From Corallococcus macrosporus DSM 14697 (lineage in GTDB: Bacteria > Myxococcota > Myxococcia > Myxococcales > Myxococcaceae): 64,000 bases of DNA. Location of the stretch: positions 4,628,501 to 4,692,500 of the forward strand of contig NZ_CP022203.1 of the NCBI RefSeq assembly GCF_002305895.1, given 5' to 3'. Positions 54,875-64,000 of this stretch are shown piece after piece; position 1 is the first letter of the stretch, and each line of letters begins with the position of its first letter. The position numbers and the translations under genes were made by a program. The notes beneath the pieces are model-generated. The model worked only from the letters and a program-made list of their open reading frames with translations, was not told where the DNA came from and did no database searches.

Positions 54875-55708
54875 TCAAGGACCCGTCAAGTCAATGGGTG
54901 GAAGCGGCGTGGTGGTGGCGTGAGGCGCCGTCGTGAGGGCAGACAGGAACTCCACGAGAGCAGCTATTCGCGGGAGAACGACAGTACTACTCGCGATCCA
55001 TCGATTGTCTTCGATGGTGGCCTGGACAGGCCGACCAGGCTTCAGGATGGCGCTCATCGCCGCCACCACCGCTTTGTGCCGGCCAGCGGGCGCAGACAGG
55101 TCCTTGAGTTCCCCAGACATGAACTCCGGCGCCGCGCGATCGAGGCCATCTACGAACTGCTCCGAATGCGTTCGCAATTTCGGATATGCGACCGCCGCAC
55201 ACTCAAGCAGGAGGTCTTCCAGCGTCCCGGGCAGTCCTCCTCCAGGAAGGACGAACACTCCCGTTCGCGGCTGCCCCGCGACGCCCCCCATCACCGCAGG
55301 GCGCGGATACCCATTGGCAGCGATTGAATCCGCCATTCTCGTGAACCGCTGCTGCGGCGTTTCCTGGGAATCGGCATCAAGCACGACTCCCACTGCATCC
55401 AAATTCACGCCGTCGAGCGCCAACGCTTTCCGGTGCGTCTCCAGTTTTCTGGCCAGTTCACTGATGCCTTGGGAGTTTACGACGGCAACAGTGGTTCCAC
55501 TGGATGGGGCACGGTAGAAAATTGGAGCGGGTACAGCGGGTCGAAGCGACCCGTCATGAGGCCACTTTGTGGGGAGGATGCGCTTCCAAACAGGGTCCAA
55601 CCCTGCTTCCCTGGAGACGTGCTCAAGCCCCAGCGAAAGCTTCAGCAGCCTGGCCAGAAATGCGACGTCATGCACACCTTCGGTCAGCAGGTAGATGCGG
55701 TTGCTCAT
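54875..55708 (-). CDS. Toprim-domain protein (DUF3226-like), partner of the ATPase
   Basis: 277 residues. YLLTEGVHDVAFLARLL provides the conserved Glu10 and Asp14, and AVGVVLDADSQ the Asp111-x-Asp113 pair, the two acidic motifs of a Toprim nuclease/primase fold as in DUF3226 and DUF4435 proteins. GVFVLPGGGLPGTLEDLLLECA is a further DUF3226-like segment. ATG 55708 overlaps the stop of the AAA ATPase by four bases. In PARIS-type defence an ATPase of this class restrains a Toprim (DUF4435) toxin until infection; a similar job is inferred. Base composition is lower than the neighbours (34 of 60 G+C from 55321). Confidence 0.78.
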   Translation of the reverse strand: MSNRIYLLTEGVHDVAFLARLLKLSLGLEHVSREAGLDPVWKRILPTKWPHDGSLRPAVPAPIFYRAPSSGTTVAVVNSQGISELARKLETHRKALALDGVNLDAVGVVLDADSQETPQQRFTRMADSIAANGYPRPAVMGGVAGQPRTGVFVLPGGGLPGTLEDLLLECAAVAYPKLRTHSEQFVDGLDRAAPEFMSGELKDLSAPAGRHKAVVAAMSAILKPGRPVQATIEDNRWIASSTVVLPRIAALVEFLSALTTAPHATTTPLPPIDLTGP

Positions 55709-56775
55709 CGGATGTCGAGCCCTTCATCACGCAAGCTGCGCAGTCCATCCAGGTCGTAGCGGAGACATGCATGGCCGCCTTCCGATCGCCGAAGGTGATA
55801 GGTGATGACCTCATCTGAAGGAGCGCTTACGAAGGCCCCTAGGGACGCATCCACCGCTTCCAAGCTATGGGTCGTCGCGACAATCTGCACTTTCGCTTCT
55901 CCCGCCGCCCGCACAAGCCAGGGCAGGACAGAGTCCAGTGCGCGCGCGTGGATCGCGGATTCGATTTCGTCCACGAGCAAGATGCCACCGCTCGCCCGGG
56001 AGAGTGCAACGCTCATCGCGAACGCCCTCCGCATGCCATCGCCGAAAGTCGCGAGATCGACAACGCCTCGTCTTTCATGGACCACACGAATCGCGTCGCG
56101 CCCAAACGGGCGACTGATCAAGACATCGCTGACGTGCGGGTCGAACATCCTCAGTAGCTCGACGGCCTTGCCTTTCGTGCCCTCGTCGATCACGTGGCTG
56201 AGATGGGTGATGAGCTGCGCCGTGGACCGATGCGTCATGGGTGTGACGACGAATACACGGAACAGCGCGACCCCATGTGGGATGGGCAGGCGCCGAGGCG
56301 TTGAGCCGAAATCCAGTTCATGCTTCATGGGCGTCGCGTCGCCAGCGCTCACCTCCATCTGGAGGCGGACCACGACATCGCTTCGAGGATCTGGACTTGC
56401 CCGGTCGCTGTCCGCCCACCGCTGCTCGATAAACGCAAGTGCCTCAGCGCGGAGTTGTCTGGACTGCCCCTCGAACCGCGCCTGGATGGAGATGGGTCTT
56501 GACTCTTCGCTTTCGCCCTCAAGCGTGAGCGCAGTACTCCCAGGGAAAAGAGCCCAGAGCCCATCCACGAGAGGACCGGAGGCGTCCCGGTTCGTAACTG
56601 TCTGAATCCACTGCCCCGGATCCACGGGCCGAGCGACCAACCCGATTGCCTCCAGAACGGAGGTTTTCCCCGCGTTGTTACCACCCACGAGCAGGTTCAT
56701 TCGGCCGAGACGCTCAAGCCGCACATCCCGCAGTGAGCGGTACGTGCCGACACACAGTTCTTCGAGGCTCGCCAT
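55705..56775 (-). CDS. AAA15/OLD-like ABC-type ATPase of a two-gene defence cassette
   Basis: 356 residues. Walker A is GGNNAGKTS (31-39), the signature region FGDGMRR (244-250), Walker B GILLVDEIES with Asp269-Glu270, and the switch His303 in IVATTHSLEA. The N-terminal YRSLRDVRLERLGRMNLLVGGNNAGKTSVLEAIGL is characteristic of AAA15/OLD-family ATPases. The family is common in anti-phage systems such as PARIS, Septu and OLD. It is the first gene of an operon with the Toprim protein. G+C is lower than in flanking operons, suggesting acquisition. Confidence 0.87.
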   Translation of the reverse strand: MASLEELCVGTYRSLRDVRLERLGRMNLLVGGNNAGKTSVLEAIGLVARPVDPGQWIQTVTNRDASGPLVDGLWALFPGSTALTLEGESEESRPISIQARFEGQSRQLRAEALAFIEQRWADSDRASPDPRSDVVVRLQMEVSAGDATPMKHELDFGSTPRRLPIPHGVALFRVFVVTPMTHRSTAQLITHLSHVIDEGTKGKAVELLRMFDPHVSDVLISRPFGRDAIRVVHERRGVVDLATFGDGMRRAFAMSVALSRASGGILLVDEIESAIHARALDSVLPWLVRAAGEAKVQIVATTHSLEAVDASLGAFVSAPSDEVITYHLRRSEGGHACLRYDLDGLRSLRDEGLDIR

Positions 56776-57126: not shown

Positions 57127-60100
57127 ATGGGACTCTTCGACTGGCTCGGCCAATGGCCCCTGCTGCGGCAACTCAAGGCCGGGGACGCCCTGGCGCTGGG
57201 TGAGAGCGCGATGTCGGAGCGCAGCCGCACCCTGGCGCCGCGCACGGCCCGGGCCGACCGCGTCGTGAAGTCCGTCTGTCCCTACTGCGCCGTGGGCTGC
57301 GGTCAGGACGTCCACGTCCAGGACGGGCGCATCCTGGACATCGAAGGGGACGCGGACTCGCCGGTGTCGCGCGGGCGCCTGTGTCCCAAGGGCTCGGCCA
57401 CCTTCCAGCTCGTCACCGGCACCCACCGCGTGAAGGACGTGCTGTACCGGCGGCCGGGCGGCACGGCCTGGGAGCGCATCCCGCTGGAGCAGGCCATGGA
57501 CATGGTGGCCGACCGCGTGAAGCAGACCCGCGACGCCACCTGGGAGGCCACCGACGCCCACGGCCACGACGTCCGGCGCACGCTGGGCATCGCCCACCTG
57601 GGCGGCGCCACGCTGGACAACGAGGAGAACTACCTCATCAAGAAGCTCTTCACCGCGCTGGGCATCGTGCAGGTGGAGAACCAGGCTCGAATATGACACT
57701 CCTCCACGGTGCCCGGTCTGGGCATCACGCTCGGGCGTGGCGGGGCCACGACCTTCCAGCAGGACCTGGCGAACGCTGACTGCATCGTCATCCAGGGCTC
57801 CAACATGGCCGAGTGCCACCCCGTGGGCTTCCAGTGGGTCATGGAGGCGAAGCAACGGGGCGCCACCGTCATCCATGTGGATCCGCGCTTCACGCGCACC
57901 AGCGCGATGGCGGACCTGCACGTCCCGCTGCGCGCCGGTTCGGACATCGCGTTCCTGGGCGGCCTCATCCGCTACGTGCTGGAGAACGAGCGCTACTTCC
58001 GCGAGTACGTCGTCCACTACACCAACGCCGCCAACATCCTGCGGGAGGACTACCAGGACGCGGAGGACCTGGACGGCCTCTTCAGCGGCTACCAGCGCGA
58101 GCGCAACGAATATGACTCCGCCACCTGGCAGTACGAAGGGGCGACGGGCGCCATCCCCGCCGCGGGCCACAAGGAGGTCTTCGCCACGGCCGGCGCCGGC
58201 GCGCGCGGGGAGACGGGCGCCCTGCCGCCCTTCGAGGCCCCCAGGGACCTCACGCTCCAGCATCCCCGCTGCGTCTTCCAGGTGCTGCGCCGCCACTACC
58301 AGCGCTACACCCCGGCCATCGTCGCCAAGGTGTGCGGCGTCCCCGAGGCGCAGTTCCTCCAGGTGGCGGAGGCGCTGTGCGCCAACTCCGGCCGCGAGCG
58401 CACCAGCGCCTTCTGCTACGCGGTGGGATGGACGCAGCACTCCGTGGGCGTGCAGTACATCCGCACGGCGACCATCCTCCAGCTCCTGCTGGGCAACATC
58501 GGGCGGCCCGGGGGCGGCATCCTCGCCCTGCGGGGGCACGCCTCCATCCAGGGCTCCACGGACATCCCCACCCTGTTCAACCTGCTGCCCGGCTACATCC
58601 CCATGCCGTACTGCGAGCACTCGGGCGTGCTCGACGAGTACATCTCCGACCACCAGTCCAAGACGGGGTGGTGGCACCACTTCCCGAAGTACATCGTCTC
58701 CCTGCTCAAGGCCTGGTTCGGCGACGCGGCGACGGCGGAGAACCACTACCGCTTCAGCCACCTGCCCCGCCTCACCGGCAACCACTCGCACATGCAGACG
58801 GTGGCGGACATGGTGGATGGCCGGGTGAAGGGCTACTTCGTCATGGGGGAGAACCCGGCGGTGGGCTCCATGAACGGCGCGCTCCAGCGGGAGGGGCTGC
58901 GCCAGCTCGACTGGCTGGTGGTCCGCGACCTCACGCTCATTGAAACCGCCGAGTTCTGGCGCACCGCCCCGGAAATCCAGCGCGGCGACGTGACGACGGA
59001 GGACATCCGCACGGAGGTCTTCTTCTTCCCCGCCGCCGCGCACACGGAGAAGGACGGCTCGTTCACCAACACGCAGCGGATGCTCCAGTGGCACCACAAG
59101 GCGGTGGAGCCACCGGGGGACGCGCGCAGCGAGCTCCACTTCATGTACCACCTGGGCCGCCGGCTGAAGGCGCGCTACGCCGCTTCGCGCGAGGAGAAGG
59201 ACCGGCCCCTCCAGGACCTCACGTGGGACTACCCCACCGTCGGCCGCGACAACGAGCCGGACGCGGAGGCCGTGCTCCACGAAATCAACGGCTACCGCGT
59301 GGCGGACGGCGCACCCGTGAGCGGCTTCGCGGAGCTGAAGGACGATGGCTCCACGGCCTGCGGCTGTTGGATCTACTCCGGCTGCCGCGCCGACGGCGTC
59401 AACCAGACCGCGCGGCGCAAGCCGGGGCGCGAGCAGACCTGGGTGGCGCCGGAGTGGGCCTGGGCCTGGCCGGCCAACCGCCGCATCCTCTACAACCGCG
59501 CCTCGGCGGACCCGGAGGGCCGGCCCTGGAGCGCCCGCAAGAAGTACGTGTGGTGGGACGCGGCCAGCGCGCGGTGGACCGGCGAGGACGTGCCGGACTT
59601 CATCGTGGACCGGCCACCGGGCTACCGGCCGACGCCGGAGGCCCGGGGCATGGACGCGCATTCGGGCACCGACCCGTTCCTGATGCTGGCGGACGGCCGG
59701 GCCTGGCTCTTCGCGCCCAGCGGCCTGATGGATGGGCCCCTGCCCACGCACTACGAGCCCATGGAGTCGCCCGTGCGCAACGCGCTCTACGGCCAGCAGT
59801 GCAACCCGGCGCGGCGGGAGTGGCGCCGGCGCGGCAACCCGTACCACCGCGCCTGGGATGACCCACGCTTCCCCTTCGTGCTCACCACCTACCGCCTCAC
59901 GGAGCACCACACGGCGGGAGGCATGAGCCGCTGGCTGTCCTGGCTCAGTGAGCTGCAACCCGAACCGTTCTGCGAAGTCTCCCCCGAGCTGGCCCGCGAG
60001 CGGGGCCTGACGAACGGCGGCTGGGCGACGCTGCGCACGGCGCGGGGGGACCTGGAGTGCCGGGTGCTCGTCACCCAGCGCATCCCGACGCTGAAGCTCA

Positions 60101-60399
60101 ACGGGACGTGGGTGCACCAGGTCGGCATTCCGTATCACTGGGGCGTGACGGGCCGCCTGCGGGCGGACGGCGCCAACGAGCTCACCCCCTTCGTGGCGGA
60201 CCCCAACGTGGAGATTCAGGAGTCCAAGGCGCTCACCTGCGACATCGTCGCGGGACGGCAGGCCACCCGCGCTCGCGCCGCCACCGGGGCCACGCAGCCC
60301 GCGCTCCCTCCGGGACTGCCCCGGCTGCACCGCGACAGCCCCTTCCTGGGGGACGTCTCGCACGCCACGACGCAGGAGCCGGAGACGGAGGACGCATAG
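57127..60399 (+). CDS. fdnG: Formate dehydrogenase catalytic subunit, selenoprotein (TGA = Sec190)
   Basis: 1,090 residues counting the in-frame TGA at 57694-57696 as selenocysteine 190. Around it, VENQARI-Sec-HSSTVPGLG matches the active-site segment of FdnG/FdoG formate dehydrogenases, and the frame continues intact to 60399. Cys51, Cys54, Cys58 and Cys86 (CPYCAVGC, CPKG) bind a [4Fe-4S] cluster; molybdopterin-binding segments include CIVIQGSNMAECHPVGFQWV and GENPAVGSMNGALQREGL. It oxidises formate to CO2 at a Mo or W bis-MGD centre. Unlike FdnG there is no twin-arginine signal, so it probably faces the cytoplasm. ATG 57127 follows GGGAGG. First gene of a three-gene operon. Confidence 0.93.
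57694..57724 (+). promoter_or_regulatory. Selenocysteine codon and SECIS hairpin
   Basis: TGA (57694-57696) is followed 13 bases later by a perfect five-pair stem, TGCCC (57710-57714) with GGGCA (57720-57724), closing the loop GGTCT. This copies the bacterial SECIS apical stem-loop of Escherichia coli fdhF (GC-AGGUCU-GC) in loop and spacing, the site bound by SelB. The hairpin lies in the coding sequence. It implies selA, selB, selC and selD elsewhere in the genome; none is in the window. Confidence 0.9.
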
Positions 60400-60402
60400 G
60401 CC

Positions 60403-61200
60403 ATGGGACAGAAGGGCTTCTTCACCGACACCACGGTCTGCATCGGCTGCAAGGCCTGCGAGGTCGCGTGCAAGCAATGGAACCAGTTGCCCGACGACGG
60501 CTTCCACTTCACCGGCATGTCCTATGACAACACGGGGGCGCTGGGCGCGTCGACGTGGCGCCACGTCGCCTTCGTCGAGCGGCCGGTGCCCCTGCCCGGC
60601 GTGTCCACGGCCATCGCGGACTTCTCGTGGCTGATGCTGTCGGACGTCTGCAAGCACTGCCAGCGCGCGGCGTGCCTGGAGGCCTGTCCCACCGGCGCCA
60701 TCATCCGCACCGAGTTCGACACCGTCTACGTGCAGCCCGACGTGTGCAACGGCTGCGGCTACTGCGTGGCGGCCTGCCCCTTCGGCGTCGTGGCGCGCCG
60801 CGAGGACGATGGCCGGGCCTGGAAGTGCACGCTCTGCTACGACCGGCTGGGGGAAGGCCTGACGCCCGCGTGCGCCAAGGCGTGCCCCACCGAGTCCATT
60901 GTCTATGGCGACCTGGAGGCCCTGCACGCGCGCGCCGAGGCCCGCGTCCAGAGCCTGCACGCGCGGGGGCTGAAGGACGCGTACCTGTACGGGAAGGACG
61001 CGGCGAACCAGCCAGGGACGGGGGGCCTCAACGCCTTCTTCCTGCTGGTGGACCGGCCGGAGGTCTACAACCTGCCGCCCGACCCCGTGGTGCCCACGAT
61101 GAAGGCGAAGGAGTCCTGGACGGCCGTGGCGCTGGGCGCGCTGGGCATGGCCGCTGTGGCGCTGGGCGCGGTGTGGCTCGGCGAGGAGGCACGCCGATGA
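60403..61200 (+). CDS. fdnH: Formate dehydrogenase iron-sulphur subunit
   Basis: 265 residues. Four cysteine groups hold four [4Fe-4S] clusters: CIGCKACEVACKQW, CKHCQRAACLEACPTG, CNGCGYCVAACPFG and CTLCYDRLGEGLTPACAKACP. One C-terminal membrane helix (AVALGALGMAAVALGAVWL) anchors it. It relays electrons from the catalytic subunit to the membrane quinone-reactive subunit. It begins three bases after the catalytic gene, and its TGA overlaps the ATG of the NrfD-like gene, giving tight coupling. Confidence 0.94.
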   Translation: MGQKGFFTDTTVCIGCKACEVACKQWNQLPDDGFHFTGMSYDNTGALGASTWRHVAFVERPVPLPGVSTAIADFSWLMLSDVCKHCQRAACLEACPTGAIIRTEFDTVYVQPDVCNGCGYCVAACPFGVVARREDDGRAWKCTLCYDRLGEGLTPACAKACPTESIVYGDLEALHARAEARVQSLHARGLKDAYLYGKDAANQPGTGGLNAFFLLVDRPEVYNLPPDPVVPTMKAKESWTAVALGALGMAAVALGAVWLGEEARR

Positions 61201-62333
61201 GCTCGCCGCACGAGCCCACGGCGTCGCTGCTGGACCAGCTCCAGCGCCGGGCCGATGGACGCAACGTGGACCCCACCCTGGGGGTGCTCACGGGTGAAGG
61301 GGCGCAGCAGCGCGTGAAGACGCTGGAGCGCGCGCCGGGCATCCGCCCTTCCCTCGCGGCGTCACCGGCGTCGCCGAGCTACCACGGCCTGCCCGTCATC
61401 AAGGAGCCGGTGTGGATCGCCGCGATCCCCACGTACCTCTACGTGGGCGGCGTGGCGGGCGCGACGAGCGTCCTCGGGCTCGCGGTGGAGCTGGCGGGGG
61501 GACGCCGCCTGCGCCAGCTCGCCCGGCGCTGCCTCTGGGTGGGCACCGCGGGCGACCTGGTGAGCGCGGGGCTGCTCACCTACGACCTGGGCCGGCCTGC
61601 GCGCTTCCTCAACATGCTGCGCGTCTTCCGTCCGACGTCGCCCATGAGCATCGGCTCGTGGGTGCTGGCGGGCTCGGGCGGGCTCAACACCCTGGCGCTC
61701 CTGCTGAGCCACCGGCGCGGCGTGCCGGGCAAAGTGGGCCGGGCGGCGGGGGCCGGGGCCGCCGTGCTGGGGCTGCCGTTGTCGGGGTACACGGCGGTGC
61801 TGCTCACCAACACCGCCGTCCCGCTGTGGCAGTCCATGCACCGCACCCTGCCCCTGTTCTTCATGGCCTCGGCGACGGCGGCGGCGGGGAGCCTGCTCTC
61901 CCTGCTGCCCCATGCACGCCACGAAGCCCGCGTGCTGCGCGCTTTCGGCCTGGCGGGCAAGGTGGCGTCACTGGCCGCCGGGCTCGCGGTGGAGCGGGAC
62001 GCGGAGCGCGTCACGGAGGTGGCCCGGCCGCTGCGGGAGGGCGTGTCGGGCGCGCTGTGGCGGACGTCGAAGGCCTGCGCCGTGGCCGGGCTGGTGCTGG
62101 ACCTGCTGCCCCGGCGTCGTCGATGGGCGCGGGTGGCGGCGGACGTGCTGACCACGGTGGGCGCGGTGTCGGCCCGCTTCGCCCTCTTCGAAGGCGGCAA
62201 GGCCTCCGCGCGCAATCCGCAGGCGACCTTCCAGGCGCAGCGTCGGGGGCTCGGCGCGGCGGAGGCCATCGCGAACCACACCCTCGCCTCCGATGGCCGG
62301 CCGTTGAGCTTCCCGCTCCGGGTGCTGCGCTAG
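61197..62333 (+). CDS. NrfD/PsrC-type membrane subunit of formate dehydrogenase
   Basis: 378 residues with about eight membrane helices after a soluble 60-residue N-terminus. IPTYLYVGGVAGATSVLGLAVEL, GDLVSAGLLTYDLGRPARFLNMLRVFRPTSPMSIGSWVLAGSGG and LSGYTAVLLTNTAVPLWQ are signatures of the NrfD/polysulphide reductase family, which exchanges electrons with quinone and lacks haem, unlike the cytochrome b FdnI. The operon therefore pairs an FdnG-like catalytic subunit with an NrfD anchor. It is the last gene; 200 bases follow before the sensor kinase. Confidence 0.88.
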   Translation: MSSPHEPTASLLDQLQRRADGRNVDPTLGVLTGEGAQQRVKTLERAPGIRPSLAASPASPSYHGLPVIKEPVWIAAIPTYLYVGGVAGATSVLGLAVELAGGRRLRQLARRCLWVGTAGDLVSAGLLTYDLGRPARFLNMLRVFRPTSPMSIGSWVLAGSGGLNTLALLLSHRRGVPGKVGRAAGAGAAVLGLPLSGYTAVLLTNTAVPLWQSMHRTLPLFFMASATAAAGSLLSLLPHARHEARVLRAFGLAGKVASLAAGLAVERDAERVTEVARPLREGVSGALWRTSKACAVAGLVLDLLPRRRRWARVAADVLTTVGAVSARFALFEGGKASARNPQATFQAQRRGLGAAEAIANHTLASDGRPLSFPLRVLR

Positions 62334-62535
62334 CGTTTCCTCCAGGGAATGGCATGGAGCAGGCACCCGCCCGCCTCCCCGACCTGCGGCCAGGAGCCAG
62401 ACGCGACCGAACGTTTTCTTCCAGGCGCAAGCCCGGGGCGTCCCTGGCGGGTTGATACATCGAGCCTGCCACGTCGAGCGCCCTCTCATGCGGGACGTGC
62501 CTGGCGATGTCCAGCTTCCCAAATGGGGTATCGCG

Positions 62536-64000
62536 ATGGCGAGCGTTGCGGGTGTCATCCGCCGGCATCAGGACGAAATCATCCGGCGTTGGACCGAGGA
62601 GGCGTCCCGCGCCGCCTCCGCCCGGGGGCTGGACGGGCCCGAGTTCAAGAACGTCATGCCCACCTACCTGGCCTCGCTCGCCGACGAGGAAGGGGCACCT
62701 GGCACGCTGGCCAGCGTCCGGCAGGCGCACGTCGAGAGCCATGTGGCCGCCCGCCTCCGGCAGGGCTTCAACGTGGCGGAGGTCATCGAGGAGTTCGCCA
62801 TCCTGGGGCGGTGCATCACCAGCATGTGGTTGAACGCTCCGACTGAAGCCCGTCCCAGCGCCCTTGACGTCGAGCGGCTCTTCACCGGCCTGCATGCCGC
62901 TTCAACCGTCGTGACGGAGCGCTTCAGCCGGCACCTGAACGAGGATGAGCAGACGGAAAAGCGCTACATGCGGCTCCTCCAGAAGGTGACCAGCGAGGCC
63001 ATCCTGGAGGAGGAGCCGACGTCCCTGCGTGACCTCTTGAAGGAAATCCTCGCGTTGCTCATCGAGGCCATGGGGGCGCAGAGCGCGGCCGTGCTCCTGT
63101 ATGAAGCCGAGGGAGAAAAGCTCGTAACGGCGGCCGCGGCGGGACTGGCGAGCGAGCACCTGGAGCAGCACGCGACCTCGATGCGCCCCTGCTCCCTTCT
63201 CCGAAAGGTTGGCGCGGGGGGCGAGGAGACCCGCTCGGTCTCGGATGAGGCGACGGCGCCGCTCGAGGTGAGCCCCACGCTTCGCCAGCACGGGTTGAAC
63301 ACGCTGTTCGGCGTCCGGCTCCCCCTTCACCGCGCGCTGGTGGGCTTCGTCTACGTCGGCCTCGCCGAGGTCCGGGACTTCACCGCCCGGGAGAAGGAGC
63401 GACTCCTGTCGCTGGGACAACAACTGATTGTCCACCTGGACAACGCCAAGCTGTACGCGGAACTACGAGAGAAGATTGAGGCATTGCAGGCCGAACGCGC
63501 GCTCCGCGAGCGCTTCGTGTCCGTCCTCGCCCATGACCTTCGCGGGCCGCTGTCGGCGGCGAAGTCAGGGGCCCAGCTCCTCATGCGGCACCCCGAGCGT
63601 CTGGACCAGCGACGTAACCTGGCGCTGCGCATCGATCAGAACATCGAGCGCACCGACCAGATGGTGCGGGACCTGCTCGACGCGAACCGCATCCGGGCAG
63701 GCCAGCGGCTCCCGCTTCGACTCGATACGTGTGACCTGGGCATCATCGCGCGGGAGGTTTTTGAAGAGCTGACGGCGCTTCATGGCGAGCGCTTCATTCT
63801 CCTGGCGGAGGAGCGCGTCCGGGGAATCTGGAGCGCGGAGGAGCTCCGCCGCGCCCTCTGGAACCTGGGCAGCAACGCCCTCAAGTACGGCTCCCCCACG
63901 GAGCCCATCACCTTCACCGTCAAGCGGGACGGCGACCGGGCGCGAGCGTCCGTCCACAACTTCTGCTCCGTCATCGCGCCCGAGGATCAGGAGCGGATCT
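62536..64000 (+). CDS. Sensor histidine kinase with RsbRD-like and GAF domains (partial at window edge)
   Basis: At least 488 residues; the frame leaves the window without a stop. Residues about 5-140 resemble the RsbRD N-terminal sensor domain (VIRRHQDEIIRRWTEEASRAA, HVESHVAARLRQGFNVAEVIEEFAILGRCI). A GAF domain follows (LLIEAMGAQSAAVLLYEAEGEKLVTAAAAGLASEHLEQH, FVYVGLAEVRDFTAREKERLLSLGQQLIVHLDNAKLYAEL). FVSVLAHDLRGPLSAAKSG is the HisKA dimerisation motif with the phosphate-accepting His333, and LRRALWNLGSNALKYGSP is the N box of the ATPase. ATG 62536 has GGGG eight bases upstream; ATG 62488 is in frame as an alternative. Probably cytoplasmic; signal and partner regulator are unknown. Confidence 0.88.
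   Translation, partial: MASVAGVIRRHQDEIIRRWTEEASRAASARGLDGPEFKNVMPTYLASLADEEGAPGTLASVRQAHVESHVAARLRQGFNVAEVIEEFAILGRCITSMWLNAPTEARPSALDVERLFTGLHAASTVVTERFSRHLNEDEQTEKRYMRLLQKVTSEAILEEEPTSLRDLLKEILALLIEAMGAQSAAVLLYEAEGEKLVTAAAAGLASEHLEQHATSMRPCSLLRKVGAGGEETRSVSDEATAPLEVSPTLRQHGLNTLFGVRLPLHRALVGFVYVGLAEVRDFTAREKERLLSLGQQLIVHLDNAKLYAELREKIEALQAERALRERFVSVLAHDLRGPLSAAKSGAQLLMRHPERLDQRRNLALRIDQNIERTDQMVRDLLDANRIRAGQRLPLRLDTCDLGIIAREVFEELTALHGERFILLAEERVRGIWSAEELRRALWNLGSNALKYGSPTEPITFTVKRDGDRARASVHNFCSVIAPEDQERI

Follow-up and report, generated by a model that had tools for sequence, protein, structure and literature searches.

A predicted selenocysteine-dependent formate dehydrogenase with a conserved SECIS hairpin in Corallococcus macrosporus

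Introduction

In formate dehydrogenase N (FDH-N) of Escherichia coli, a SECIS hairpin follows the UGA codon. The alpha subunit of formate dehydrogenase (FDH) is the most widespread selenoprotein family of bacteria (PMC5029168; PMC13188914), and in Geodermatophilaceae UAG is already known to be read as selenocysteine (Sec) by a tRNA-Sec with a CUA anticodon (PMC5330540). Among myxobacteria, a survey published in 2006 listed 11 selenoproteins, three of them FdhA, in Anaeromyxobacter dehalogenans (PMC1794560).

Here we describe a gene that appears broken by an in-frame TGA and that we read as intact. It lies in a window of 64,000 nucleotides from the genome of C. macrosporus DSM 14697 (NZ_CP022203.1, positions 4,628,501 to 4,692,500), for which a first-pass annotation had been made from the sequence letters. 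Topic searches for literature joining selenoproteins and myxobacteria found nothing direct, the Anaeromyxobacter entry having come to us through the 2006 survey, and in the literature searched we found no paper on this particular Myxococcus fdhA gene.

Results and discussion

The fdhA reading frame and its operon

The features discussed below are collected in Table 1. The fdhA frame consists of 189 codons, a TGA, exactly 900 sense codons and a terminal TAG, and the TGA is the only in-frame stop before that TAG, which bears out the first-pass claim of a TGA at the Sec position with 900 intact codons downstream. Third-position GC is 0.94 on the 5′ side of the TGA and 0.96 on the 3′ side, indicating that both halves are coding. 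Around the Sec site the predicted protein reads QVENQARI-U-HSSTVPGLG, and its other recognizable motifs are a 4Fe-4S site CPYCAVGC (51–58), LCPKG (85–89), the U190-H191 pair itself, and LRGHAS (468–473).

Table 1 Features of the fdh locus (window positions) and Sec-related genes elsewhere in the genome (contig positions)
Feature	Position	Strand	Evidence
fdhA, formate dehydrogenase alpha subunit (predicted)	57127..60399	+	1090 aa including Sec190; NF041513; alignment to 1kqf and 1h0h
Predicted Sec codon TGA	57694..57696	+	codon 190; TGA in 102/110 homologs
Bacterial SECIS hairpin (predicted)	57708..57726	+	GGTGCCC / loop GGTCT / GGGCATC; 7-bp fold, SECIS_3 match, covariation
fdhB, 4Fe-4S beta subunit, hydrophobic C-terminal stretch	60403..61200	+	TIGR01582 E=2e-54 (below curated cut-off); Fer4_11
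NrfD-like membrane subunit	61194..62333 (start codon inside the stretch)	+	PF03916 E=1e-14
tRNA-Sec (selC)	5528215-5528309		anticodon TCA, 69.8 bits
selB	at 1323567		283 bits; C-terminal part in same frame
selA	at 3930838		545 bits
selD	at 2412812		386 bits
fdhD	at 8848150		214 bits
SelW-like/Rdx gene, CxxU, one TGA (candidate)	8065650-8065856	-	Rdx/SelW family search; reads YCTAU-GYRPRAARAAA

The gene is the first of an fdhA-fdhB-nrfD operon, and fdhB followed by nrfD lies downstream of fdhA in many homologous loci. The NrfD-like protein is likely the quinone-reducing partner of the enzyme. A simple motif search of the window protein found no twin-arginine (RR) signal at the FdhA N-terminus, so that a cytoplasmic-side dehydrogenase feeding quinone via NrfD is the likely arrangement.

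Directly 3′ of the operon, and running off the window, is a sensor histidine kinase with an RsbRD-type N-terminus and a GAF domain (62452-63999), which could possibly regulate the fdh genes. Upstream of fdhA on the opposite strand (54875-56775) lie an AAA ATPase (PF13304) and then a DUF3226 protein, a pair that, by impression, recalls OLD-like ATPase/nuclease systems with an anti-phage role.

Family assignment

With the TGA read as Sec, FdhA residues 6–1050 match NF041513 (formate_DH_Act, the actinobacterial-type FDH) at 1872.7 bits against a cut-off of 1400 bits, making this the nearest curated family. TIGR01553 (formate dehydrogenase-N alpha) also matches above its cut-off (988.6 versus 814.2 bits), and Pfam assigns Fe4S4, molybdopterin and dinucleotide-binding domains (PF04879, PF00384, PF01568). 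The best matches among solved structures are 1h0h and E. coli FDH-N, 1kqf; Sec190 aligns to the non-standard residue (X) of both chains, with which FdhA also shares the LCxKG, Sec-His and LRG motifs.

We also considered that FdhA might belong to this superfamily but use its Sec on a substrate other than formate, as nitrate, DMSO, arsenate and other reductases are members too and their models also match FdhA. Those matches are weaker and fall under their cut-offs, however, whereas both FDH models score above theirs; the Sec-His pair and LRG motif correspond to FDH structures, and fdhD is present in the genome. We consider another substrate very unlikely.

The hairpin downstream of the Sec codon

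A perfect 5-bp stem, TGCCC-GGTCT-GGGCA, begins 13 bases beyond the TGA, and the coordinates and distances given for it by the first-pass annotation were right. The foldable stem is longer, at 7 bp, pairing 57708-57714 with 57720-57726 around a loop at 57715-57719. This element has what defines a bacterial SECIS, namely a hairpin shortly after the UGA with G-U in the apical loop. Rfam SECIS_3 matches 57691-57752 with 34.2 bits (E=4.3e-5, 4 kb searched), below a gathering score of 63 that is the criterion for that SECIS sub-family only. Rfam SECIS_1 (RF00031) gave no match in the whole genome, but its controls gave none either, so that this negative carries no weight. Measured against shuffled sequences, the folding energy of the hairpin is unremarkable for DNA this rich in GC (z −0.8 and −0.15).

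We therefore rely on comparison among 110 homologous genes, drawn partly from the order and partly from named genomes. The codon at the Sec site is TGA in 102, TAG in three and TGC in five, with TGG in none, and the source records of the TGA homologs carry Myxococcota, Geobacterales, Acidobacteriota-type and Actinomycetota names. Of all named records the nearest, at 92% identity, bears the title ‘Comamonas sp. KCTC 72670’, which appears to be a mislabel for what is probably a Myxococcus strain.

Numbered from the T of the TGA (position 1), pairs 16-32, 17-31, 19-29, 20-28 and 21-27 form in all 102 TGA homologs and pair 18-30 in 101. This last pair links the third-position bases of a Val and a Gly codon; it is G-C in 34 genes, U-A in 29, C-G in 26 and U-G in 12, swaps that keep the RNA pairing and leave the protein unchanged. 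Ranked among 335 variable third-position pairs, the remainder of which serve as a control for relatedness, it has the highest mutual information (1.13, against 0.63 for the runner-up) as well as the highest pairing (99%, against 78%). In a 31-sequence alignment, 99.5% of stem cells are paired and the covariation score of the stem exceeds that of all 500 shuffles and all slid registers. The loop U, which also occupies a third codon position, is T in every one of the 102 genes even though G or C fills ~93% of third positions. On these sequence comparisons the hairpin is real above chance, through TGA conservation and covariation, which its folding energy alone does not say.

Homologs with other codons at the Sec site differ in the hairpin. 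In the five TGC homologs the stem has been lost: pair 18-30 is broken in every one and pair 19-29 in four. The full hairpin is retained only where the Sec site holds a stop codon, including the three TAG homologs (Geodermatophilus, Blastococcus). The Cys homologs have Ala or Ser after the Val, where Sec genes have Pro; this fits a Pro CCC codon that is maintained for the hairpin stem and not for the protein.

These results bear on two other readings of the gene. An in-frame stop inside an otherwise normal gene is what a pseudogene would present, the TGA having arisen in what was once a Cys enzyme, by nonsense mutation or through a sequencing error. But the same TGA recurs in 102 homologs under all the record names given above, the hairpin is maintained by synonymous covariation, and the genome holds selABCD; we regard the pseudogene reading as scarcely credible and, given this conservation, as already refuted. 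UGA readthrough also occurs in bacteria, so that the codon might be read as Trp or another residue by ordinary suppression, or the gene might yield a truncated N-terminal product only. Against this, homologs without TGA have TGC (Cys) or TAG and never TGG, the hairpin accompanies a stop codon, and TAG is the Sec codon of Geodermatophilaceae, decoded by the CUA tRNA-Sec (PMC5330540). We give ordinary suppression or truncation next to no weight.

The base preceding the Sec codon

The base before the Sec TGA (in the codon at 57691-57693 of the window) is A or T in 100 of the 102 TGA FDH genes, a count that overstates independence because the genes are related; the pattern recurs, with different codons, in both myxobacterial and actinobacterial records. 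The preceding codon is ATA in 47, ATT in 39, GTT in 14 and ATC in two, while elsewhere in these genes an A or T ending occurs in only ~4% of Ile and Val codons. All three TAG genes have ATA before the stop, and all five TGC genes have G or C at this base. A general A/T rule before any Sec codon was rejected, since in SelW-like genes this base is mostly C or G, and the preference therefore looks specific to this FDH signal. Tentatively, we suggest that the recoding signal of this FDH clade might extend 5′ of the Sec codon, requiring an A or U (perhaps unpaired) in addition to the downstream SECIS. A limited literature search found no description of such a preference before the FDH Sec codon.

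Sec-decoding machinery and its distribution

The first-pass annotation had made its reading depend on selB and selC, and selA, selB, selC (anticodon TCA) and selD are all present in the complete genome, a single contig of 8,973,512 bases. Recoding signal and machinery can thus both be read from the DNA itself. No in-frame stop occurs in the selD of C. macrosporus. The sel genes and fdhD are scattered and not clustered with fdhA.

We sampled 117 genomes of the order, counting FDH matches at E<=1e-100. Sec decoding appears common, with selA in 103 genomes and tRNA-Sec in 94; FDH occurs in 64, a figure that also counts some genomes whose only matches are more distant paralogs (~40–45% identity). 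The selA gene accompanies FDH in 63 of these 64, the exception being a genome of 61% completeness in which tRNA-Sec is nonetheless present. Conversely, 13 of the 14 genomes without selA also lack FDH (Fisher p=2e-4; relatedness not corrected). FDH is absent from 40 of the 103 selA-bearing genomes, so the machinery is not tied to fdhA alone and other selenoproteins are presumably in use.

A second likely selenoprotein of the C. macrosporus genome is the SelW-like CxxU protein. A TGA-containing SelW-like copy was found in 60 of the 117 genomes, all 60 of which carry selA, and many of these genes have predicted hairpins 3′ of the TGA. In one genome the only SelW-like copy lacks a TGA, and that genome has neither selA nor tRNA-Sec. 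The first-pass remark that selenoproteins are not commonly described in myxobacteria is weak in light of these 60 genomes and of the 11 Anaeromyxobacter selenoproteins listed in 2006 (PMC1794560). Thirteen genomes have selA with neither FDH nor a SelW-like TGA gene, and these may hold other selenoproteins. A gene caller that treats TGA as a stop would truncate both the FDH and the SelW-like protein.

Proposed function

Given the homology, the synonymous covariation of the hairpin, its loss in Cys homologs and the presence of selABCD in the genome, fdhA almost certainly encodes the catalytic subunit of a Sec-dependent molybdopterin FDH, with UGA 190 recoded via the GGUCU hairpin. We hypothesize that SelB carrying Sec-tRNA(UCA) binds this hairpin just 3′ of UGA 190, and that Sec would be inserted there instead of termination. 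Sec, together with His191, would take part in the oxidation of formate to CO2, and electrons would reach the NrfD-type membrane subunit, and from there quinone, by way of the 4Fe-4S clusters of FdhA and FdhB. We infer Sec insertion, the formate substrate, the membrane side and the electron acceptor from the respective families. For these bacteria, a Sec enzyme that oxidizes formate could plausibly supply additional electrons.

Comparison with known systems

A Sec FDH of this arrangement is a familiar and broadly distributed feature of myxobacteria and actinobacteria, and the present find is therefore sound but ordinary. The first-pass annotation had recognized an FdnG/FdoG active-site motif. 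Its identification of a Sec FDH stands, and the Sec-His active site, the alpha/beta organization and a hairpin 3′ of the UGA are all shared with E. coli FDH-N (FdnGHI). In detail, though, the enzyme is not of the exported FdnG/FdoG type: NF041513 is the closer curated family, FdhA differs from FDH-N and FDH-O (FdnGHI, FdoGHI) in having no Tat motif by the simple search, and the third gene is NrfD-like (PF03916) rather than a cytochrome b gamma subunit of the FdnI type.

The likeness to the NF041513 FDHs extends over the full length of the protein, and genes from Actinomadura, Streptomyces and Amycolatopsis are 63–66% identical with the same TGA and hairpin. The myxobacterial branch described here differs in that its hairpin pair is mostly Val GTG / Gly GGC, and C. 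macrosporus in its scattered sel genes, which in a number of other loci lie beside fdhA. The Geodermatophilaceae UAG-Sec FDH is the same enzyme with the same hairpin, with TAG in place of TGA. The Sec FDHs of Geobacterales (Geomonas, Geomesophilobacter) share 69% identity, the TGA, the same hairpin and the succession of fdhB and nrfD, whereas their covarying pair is C-G and that of C. macrosporus is G-C.
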